DNA of 64,000 nt from assembly GCF_001425445.1 (NCBI RefSeq), contig NZ_LMQU01000010.1:131501-195500 (forward strand), written 5' to 3'. The translations under genes were made by a program, and so were the position numbers. Every line of letters begins with the position of its first letter. The first letter of the stretch is position 1. The stretch is from Devosia sp. Leaf420. GTDB taxonomy: Bacteria > Pseudomonadota > Alphaproteobacteria > Rhizobiales > Devosiaceae. Below the pieces are notes generated by a model. The model searched no databases, had not been told where the DNA came from, and saw nothing but the letters and a program-made list of their open reading frames with translations. Positions 40,929-41,224 of the stretch are shown piece after piece.

Positions 40929-41033
40929 TCCACCGCCCATATCCCTCCCCCTCCCAGGGGGATGCTAGGTGGGGGGTGAGGCTAGGTGTGGGTCACCGCC
41001 CCGTGAAAATCTTGTGACTAGACAAGCCGAAAA

Positions 41034-41053
41034 ATGAGGCGCAAGCTCCTCAT
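41034..41053 (+). promoter_or_regulatory. Leader hairpin ahead of the micro-gene
   Basis: ATGAGG and CCTCAT form a 6-bp stem around CGCAAGCT, 15 bases before the Shine-Dalgarno. Its 3' arm includes CTCCT, which could instead pair with AGGAG of the ribosome site, so two exclusive foldings are possible. Function is inferred. Confidence 0.35.
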
Positions 41054-41068
41054 ATGTTCAACCAACTT

Positions 41069-41083
41069 TAAGGAGGTGATCCA
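41069..41083 (+). promoter_or_regulatory. Extended Shine-Dalgarno, full 15-base match to the 16S rRNA tail
   Basis: TAAGGAGGTGATCCA is the exact reverse complement of the bacterial 16S rRNA 3' end (TGGATCACCTCCTTA). The GGAGG core lies seven bases before the GTG at 41084. Normal genes use four to seven of these bases. Confidence 0.8.
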
Positions 41084-41152
41084 GTGTCTTTTGAGAATTC
41101 GGTGCTCGAGGTCCTGGGAATGTCGGTGCAGTTTGGGAGTGATCTCGACTAG
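41084..41152 (+). CDS. Micro-gene, 22 codons, unknown function (leader peptide or small protein)
   Basis: Not recognised. GTG start, then SFENSVLEV...; the peptide ends FGSDLD before TAG. It is amphipathic and acidic, with no cysteine and no membrane segment. Support comes from its context: a perfect extended Shine-Dalgarno at ideal distance, no overlap with other genes, and a strong terminator 40 bases beyond the stop. Together these define a self-contained transcript of perhaps 150-220 bases between potI and purU. It could encode a working small protein, a regulatory leader peptide, or be a ribosome-binding RNA in which translation is secondary. Confidence 0.5.
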   Translation: MSFENSVLEVLGMSVQFGSDLD

Positions 41153-41189
41153 CATCCCCCTCCTCAGGCTCAGCGCCTGTCACTCAGGG

Positions 41190-41224
41190 AAGGGTCGCTC
41201 CGCGGAGCGGCCCTTTTCCTTTTT
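41190..41224 (+). terminator. Strong terminator of the micro-gene transcript
   Basis: AAGGGTCGCTCC and GGAGCGGCCCTT form a 12-bp stem (one G-U pair) with a two-base loop, followed by TTCCTTTTTCT. It separates the micro-gene from purU. Confidence 0.85.

Follow-up and report, generated by a model that had tools for sequence, protein, structure and literature searches.

An extended Shine-Dalgarno sequence in Devosia appears to mark a member of a described family of small alphaproteobacterial mRNAs

Why do many alphaproteobacteria keep a small RNA that matches the ribosome far beyond the needs of translation? This testable question is raised by a locus in the window, the stretch of 64,000 nucleotides of Devosia sp. 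Leaf420 DNA analysed here, where TAAGGAGGTGATCCA occupies positions 41069-41083 and is followed by a GTG from position 41084, with a spacing of seven bases between GGAGG and GTG. The features of the locus are the following.

41018..41023, + strand: CTAGAC, a putative -35-like element (CTGGAC in most of the genus) of a candidate promoter
41054..41069, + strand: short leader AUGUUCAACCAACUUU, with the 5' end of the RNA probably near 41053-41054
41070..41084, + strand: AAGGAGGTGATCCAG, an extended Shine-Dalgarno sequence that complements the 16S tail and ends on the first base of GTG
41084..41152, + strand: 22-codon frame MSFENSVLEVLGMSVQFGSDLD, with GTG start and TAG stop (41150-41152)
41092..41095, + strand: 5' strand UGAG of the clamp helix P1 (end of codon 3 and codon 4), from the minimum-energy fold
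41159..41163, + strand: CCUCC, an internal anti-Shine-Dalgarno-like element after the stop, from sequence and fold prediction
41183..41186, + strand: 3' strand CUCA of the clamp helix P1, from the minimum-energy fold
41187..41218, + strand: intrinsic terminator hairpin, then a T-rich run, from sequence and fold

The site was compared with the 16S rRNA tail of a related alphaproteobacterium and not with that of the Devosia genome itself; this tail is the beginning, GGCUGGAUCACCUCCUUUCU, of a 39-base oligonucleotide in a table within the available part of a S. meliloti paper (PMC6943124). Patterns for the 16S 3' end gave no match in the Devosia genome (G000), nor in a set of five genomes that included it. 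The T at 41069 would pair with the 16S tail of E. coli; with the printed tail of the related alphaproteobacterium, GGCUGGAUCACCUCCUUUCU, it is left unpaired. The G of GTG pairs with the tail, and the perfect block therefore shifts by one base to AAGGAGGTGATCCAG at 41070-41084, which still has 15 bases and ends on that G. The perfect 15-base Shine-Dalgarno sequence claimed in the original prediction was thus right in its number of complementary bases and one base off in its placement, with the leading T unpaired, and the 22-codon frame opened by a GTG seven bases from the site was confirmed, running from 41084 to the TAG at 41150-41152. The duplex predicted for the 16 bases 41070-41085 had an energy of -29.7 kcal/mol, compared to -12.2 kcal/mol for AGGAGG flanked by A's. 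In the 4.2 Mb genome the 15-mer has a single exact copy, and the near-matches listed fall at one place with one mismatch and at 12 with two.

Among the 33 genus loci, identity was 94-100% at site positions 1-14 and also along the leader ATGTTCAAC; at the offsets of the -35-like element ungapped identity was 58-76%, compared to 27-55% at offsets -85 to -66. Together, the conserved leader and the terminator predict an RNA of about 165-170 nt. In the fold, the terminator stem begins 34 bases past the stop and has 14 pairs (41187-41200 with 41205-41218); the terminator that had been announced is present, at this distance and length instead of the 40 bases and 12 pairs given for it. The terminator hairpin at 41187-41218 was found again elsewhere in 16 of 36 genus relatives (secondary matches, query positions 188-231), which looks like reuse of one terminator sequence.

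The comparisons rest on 205 sites, reduced to 191 loci after dropping identical contexts. The hc, rhodo and brady groups were defined by the start of the peptide and by frame length (18 codons in rhodo, 14 in brady), so that constant length within them is by construction. The 33 Devosia loci comprise 30 from whole-region similarity or the window and three from site patterns (L033, L042 and L095); those from whole-region similarity represent the best 29 of 36 genus relatives. Alignments were made of 42 of the 71 hc, 20 of the 33 Devosia and 28 of the 41 rhodo loci; they exclude six of the picked Devosia loci, some of which have insertions downstream of the stop.

An exact AAGGAGGTGATCNNRTG precedes a start codon in 65 of the 75 sampled genus genomes (counted by rows), and three of the ten misses (G024, G001 and G004, corresponding to L014, L016 and L021) carry the gene with one changed site base. 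By whole-region similarity the locus was present in all 37 genus genomes tried, its own included, and outside the genus in one of 24 genomes, over 32 bases only. The site was found in more distant genomes as well, with AAGGAGGTGATCNNRTG in 95 of 136 family genomes (reversed control in none), AAGGAGGTGATCNNRTGTC in 74 of 385 class genomes (control 0) and AAGGAGGTGATCCAGTGTC in at least 119 public-genome stretches, most of them alphaproteobacterial by title; the titles among the matches listed also included four that name a phylum only, two gammaproteobacterial ones (SAR92, Cellvibrionales) and one of Acidobacteriaceae. A plasmid search with the window RNA gave no match. It is hardly conceivable that the site is a chance match or an antisense fragment of 16S rRNA. 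The 15-mer does read as the antisense of the 16S end, but the match stops after CAG where the S. meliloti tail, as printed in the part of the paper available, would need CAGCC, and an antisense fragment was rejected on this end of the match; a chance match is contradicted by the conservation of the site in the genus (the 65 of 75 genomes above, control 0).

Several individual loci deserve mention. The gammaproteobacterial loci L110:11-83 and L081:898-961 (Cellvibrionales and SAR92) have an exact 19-mer and a shorter body, match RF01867 weakly (25-26 bits, E 0.15-0.21) and encode short peptides that by eye share a stretch. At L213:422-631, from Azospirillum, the 'hypothetical protein' WP_174757059.1 is annotated antisense to a putative element (25-base match) and is perhaps a false gene. 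Four genomes (G162, G341, G751 and G792) have two site-pattern matches each, and in the second match the bases ahead of the start codon are often different.

At curated thresholds, an Rfam scan of the window matched no family. In a sensitive scan, 41060-41214 aligned to the full RF01867 model (CC2171, model positions 1-159) with 54.1 bits (E 1.3e-10), which is below the gathering score of 75 bits, and this match was the only one genome-wide. Around site and start, 20 bases agree exactly with the RF01867 consensus; the relation beyond the site is modest, since the body without the binding site scored 19.4 bits (E 0.015). RF01867 matches were obtained in 39 of 190 sampled class genomes, seven of them above the curated 75 bits, and in one of 14 control genomes, that of Caulobacter vibrioides; two Bradyrhizobium, two Rhodobacteraceae and two further Devosia loci reached 28-49 bits, all below 75. 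Among the 30 best-scoring RF01867 loci, own locus included, the 12-base core AAGGAGGTGATC was exact in 26 and had one change in four, compared to eight with the full 15-mer exact, so the constant part is AAGGAGGTGATC and the last three bases vary. With seven of 39 matched class genomes passing, the curated threshold of 75 bits leaves out most relatives. The available part of PMC5596092 assigns MH_s33, a predicted sRNA of Mesorhizobium huakuii, to RF01867.

The neighbours of the locus in the window encode PurU and a permease that resembles PotI but scores below the cut-off of the model. Across the related loci, flanking proteins cluster by lineage, and the downstream genes vary in identity and strand between lineages. 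Single flank representatives, on either strand, were a queuosine precursor transporter and ArfB in Rhodobacteraceae, RNase R and release factor 3 elsewhere (five of the ten proteins in this set without family), and glutamyl/glutaminyl-tRNA synthetase, gamma-glutamyltranspeptidase and a TauD-like enzyme in a further set (two of ten without family). A terminator-like hairpin follows in 183 of the 191 related loci, at a median distance from the site of 118-140 nt depending on the group. Because the neighbouring genes differ between lineages, we regard the locus as free-standing and not as a leader of purU, and the claim that it is self-contained and unrelated to potI and purU held, with the terminator lying between. 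A leader peptide or attenuator controlling the downstream purU would agree with the common strand and with a purU-family gene as the next ORF called in 23 of the 33 Devosia loci, but in other lineages a different gene follows, frequently on the opposite strand, and a fixed same-strand downstream gene was not found across the relatives; a purU leader, very improbable in our judgement, was rejected on neighbours and terminator, and the leader peptide offered in the original prediction is accordingly less supported.

The upstream queuosine-transporter family is common to 24 loci and the downstream arfB family to 11 (e.g., L117:2731-4014, Rhodobacteraceae), one member of each cluster having been named. 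RNase R follows in a Bosea locus (L045); in Microvirga (L083) the preceding gene, on the opposite strand, encodes release factor 3. By eye, several neighbours among the named representatives are translation-related.

The frame is open throughout the collection: in frame 0 no stop was found before codon 14 in any of the 191 loci, and the other two frames had stops before codon 10 in 21% and 38% (188 loci each). The genus loci have 22, 23 or 24 codons and start with GTG or ATG; one TTG was found elsewhere. The pN/pS values in the real frame were 0.79-0.80 in Devosia, 0.95 in rhodo, 1.30 in brady and 0.91 in hc, with 53, 138, 134 and 27 of 200 column shuffles, respectively, at or below the observed value, and purifying selection on the peptide was not found by pN/pS in any of these four groups. 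In a BLOSUM-based test of conservative substitutions, 3 of 300 shuffles were as high in Devosia, 20 in hc, 70 in brady and 101 in rhodo. The Devosia excess was 1.18 compared to a shuffle mean of 0.07, and since it lies above 297 of 300 column shuffles the peptide may matter; with four groups and two tests the signal is modest, and that in hc is borderline.

These results bear on whether the locus is an ordinary, well-translated gene, with its peptide of 22-24 residues as the function and an extended site that is simply strong. We consider such a gene unlikely, though with some real chance of being right. It would account for the narrow range of frame lengths in the genus, for the substitution excess, for a Devosia pN/pS that is lowest in the real frame (0.79 compared to 1.12 and 1.02 in the others) and for a window start codon predicted to be 0.72-0.87 unpaired. 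However, that Devosia pN/pS is equalled or beaten by more than a quarter of its column shuffles (the 53 of 200), the values of the other groups lie close to or above one, the rhodo value is lower in frame +1 (0.58) than in the real frame, and from one lineage to another the peptide changes but the RNA signals are kept. Constraint on the peptide is slight compared to that on the conserved site, start codon, terminator and helix. The highly translated small protein of the original prediction is less supported, given this weak amino-acid constraint and a relative that is reportedly weakly translated; the comparison of peptide and site that it had proposed came out with the site kept in the genus and far beyond. 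As judged from sequence comparison, the evidence favours the ribosome-binding RNA, rather than the peptide, as the conserved part.

P1, the conserved helix, brings together the bases immediately after GTGTC and those immediately ahead of the terminator. An earlier test, based on the longest run anywhere in the body, gave 7.42 compared to 6.71 in shuffled sequences for Devosia and 7.54 compared to 6.63 for hc, with little or no gain in rhodo, brady and the remaining loci ('other'); because this test is weak, we relied on one anchored at the P1 positions. There, real strands paired better than swaps from other groups in 65 of 66 hc, 34 of 41 rhodo, 24 of 33 Devosia, 7 of 10 brady and 26 of 33 'other' loci. 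The corresponding energies, real and swapped, were -9.23 and -3.62 kcal/mol in hc, -6.10 and -3.86 in rhodo, -6.81 and -4.84 in 'other', -4.32 and -3.18 in brady, and -5.41 and -4.35 in Devosia. Shuffles reached -4.61 in brady, compared to the real -4.32, and within-group swaps equalled or beat the real strands in Devosia (-5.42 compared to -5.41) and rhodo (-6.30 compared to -6.10). We thus have P1 shown in hc and 'other'; in Devosia it is short, and its support would come mainly from the other groups.

Consensus folding with RNAalifold gave a structure without P1 in Devosia and three pairs only in the poorly aligned hc set. In Rhodobacteraceae, the core GGAGGUG paired with a downstream CACCUCC, which copies part of the 16S tail, and the start codon was closed in the hairpin. 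This hairpin paired in 192 of 196 and 221 of 224 cells, compared to 105-124 (of 179-196) and 87-112 (of 224) when slid, and P1 of hc (CAUUGUC with GACAAUG) in 259 of 289 cells, compared to 58-161 of 245-292 when slid, these slid controls being soft because the structures were derived from the same rows or, for the hc P1, placed on one of them.

In 24 of the 33 genus loci a CCTCC follows the stop by no more than 25 nt, compared to one of 33 shuffled bodies with the motif anywhere, and [CT]CTCC is present in all 41 rhodo loci, compared to four when shuffled; in hc CCTCC is not enriched (14 of 71 loci, 13 of 71 shuffled). Over all groups, 85 of 189 loci have CCTCC between +20 and +200 relative to the site, compared to 12-16% in five flanking windows. 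In two Devosia loci, L012 and L017, the stop and the CCTCC/TCTCC element are separated by an inserted hairpin, GGAAAAGTGG..CCACTTTTCC, which resembles a small repeat element. The CCUCC of the window is predicted to pair partly inside the frame and not with the Shine-Dalgarno sequence, and forcing it onto the site costs 2.8 kcal/mol in the fold prediction. An element of this kind might cover the Shine-Dalgarno sites of other mRNAs, the RNA acting in trans with its own start site as a secondary matter. Such a role is in keeping with the high frequency of the motif behind the stop in Devosia and rhodo and with the listing of RF01867 as an sRNA, but hc lacks the enrichment and the Rhodobacteraceae element can pair with the RNA's own site, in 192 of 196 cells; we consider it decidedly improbable.

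In the window fold, the site core was 0.37-0.42 unpaired. Pairing between site and body was within the best 5% of shuffles in 37 of 70 hc, 20 of 41 rhodo, 8 of 10 brady and 13 of 36 'other' loci, and in 2 of 33 Devosia loci. In whole-RNA folds, rhodo was less open than shuffles at the core (0.16 compared to 0.29) and the start (0.17 compared to 0.43), and brady only at the extension (0.30 compared to 0.43) and the start (0.00 compared to 0.35). Core openness was above shuffles in hc (0.48 compared to 0.39) and Devosia (0.39 compared to 0.33), and site openness in 'other' was no different from shuffles. Self-locking of the site as a general rule was rejected, Devosia loci being no more locked than shuffles; judging from these predicted folds, it is a feature of some lineages.

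The explanation that we rate as best, and as fairly probable, is that the locus encodes a free-standing, weakly translated small mRNA that is about 165-170 nt long, engages 30S subunits and represents the rreB/rreR (RF01867-like) group in Devosia. The extended Shine-Dalgarno sequence would capture the 30S subunit by pairing with the 16S tail over as many as 15 bases; the complementarity is observed, and the binding would follow from it. With a duplex that extends as far as the start codon at this locus, and a short helix that ties the first codons to the terminator base, initiation would be tight but slow. Translation would be weak, as is reported for rreB together with co-sedimentation with 30S. 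Selection would act mainly on the ribosome-engaging RNA, with the peptide at most a secondary product here, and the likely role would be that stability and translation of the RNA report on, or draw on, free 30S subunits. Counting against this explanation, reach to the start codon is not a family rule (eight of 30 loci with the 15-mer, and ATG in part of the genus). Of the readings offered in the original prediction, an RNA that engages 30S fits best, the engagement itself being what complementarity would suggest.

A more far-reaching version, which we hold to be quite unlikely in its entirety, would cast the family as an RNA that senses free 30S subunits across the whole class. The extended site would be held, in several lineages, by an internal mimic of part of the 16S tail (Rhodobacteraceae having CACCUCC, and others CUGGAUC..GCCUC or GGAUCGCC), and only the real tail, with more bases paired, would pry it open, the long extension serving as a toehold; Devosia would have the same elements relaxed, with CCUCC behind the stop.

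Through this locus, an orphan Rfam sRNA would be linked to a family of small mRNAs. The comparisons show how widely the arrangement persists and separate conserved parts (site, start, helix and terminator) from a weakly conserved peptide. The original prediction had held that such complementarity is rare in genes; the arrangement is indeed unusual for a gene, and it belongs to an already described family, of which this locus appears, from its sequence, to be the Devosia member. Searches of the literature with the motif and the family names found no paper that equates rreB/rreR with RF01867, and a search with the site motif found none describing this RNA in the text available; it is not mentioned in the available parts of PMC5082802, PMC10117765 and PMC5521070. 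In the available part of PMC4117421, Schrader et al. report that two earlier-predicted Caulobacter ncRNAs are translated.

With Caulobacter sRNA CC2171 (RF01867), the locus shares an identical core around site and start, and it aligns over the full model, with a predicted terminator and a possible long-range helix at corresponding places; it differs in a score below the cut-off and in the inner hairpins of the model, which are matched poorly, and RF01867 is listed as an sRNA and not as a small mRNA. The rreB of Bradyrhizobiaceae reportedly encodes 14 residues behind a 17-nt site, and rreR of the Rhodobacter lineage is said to encode 18, the complementarity to the 16S tail in this family extending over about 16-17 nt. 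Their free-standing transcript is reportedly of about 165 nt; rreB is said to co-sediment with 30S and to be weakly translated, impeded by the long site and the GTG, and to be stabilised when its start codon is changed to a stop. The Devosia locus resembles this description in being a predicted stand-alone small mRNA of alphaproteobacteria with an extended Shine-Dalgarno sequence and a very short frame directly behind the site, here 22 codons opened by GTG, the start reportedly used in rreB. Forms of 14 and 18 residues, the sizes reported for rreB and rreR, occur among the collected loci: Bradyrhizobium copies encode the 14-residue VSYTKRCHLAGIAR and near relatives behind GAAAGGAGGTGATCCAG, and Rhodobacteraceae copies have mostly 18-codon frames. 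The Devosia locus differs in its 22 codons, in its peptide and in a site of 15 nt, counted with the tail of a relative, compared to the reported 17, or one to two below the family figure of about 16-17. The rreB/rreR small mRNAs are those of Hahn et al. (2017), cited in the available part of PMC7298713. In S. aureus, according to the part of PMC13009471 available, pairing of an extended Shine-Dalgarno sequence proceeds from the canonical site towards the start codon in the ribosome structure and affects the choice of start, as in the geometry described here; there it adds two base pairs in ordinary mRNA, whereas the Devosia locus offers up to 15 pairs in one dedicated small RNA.
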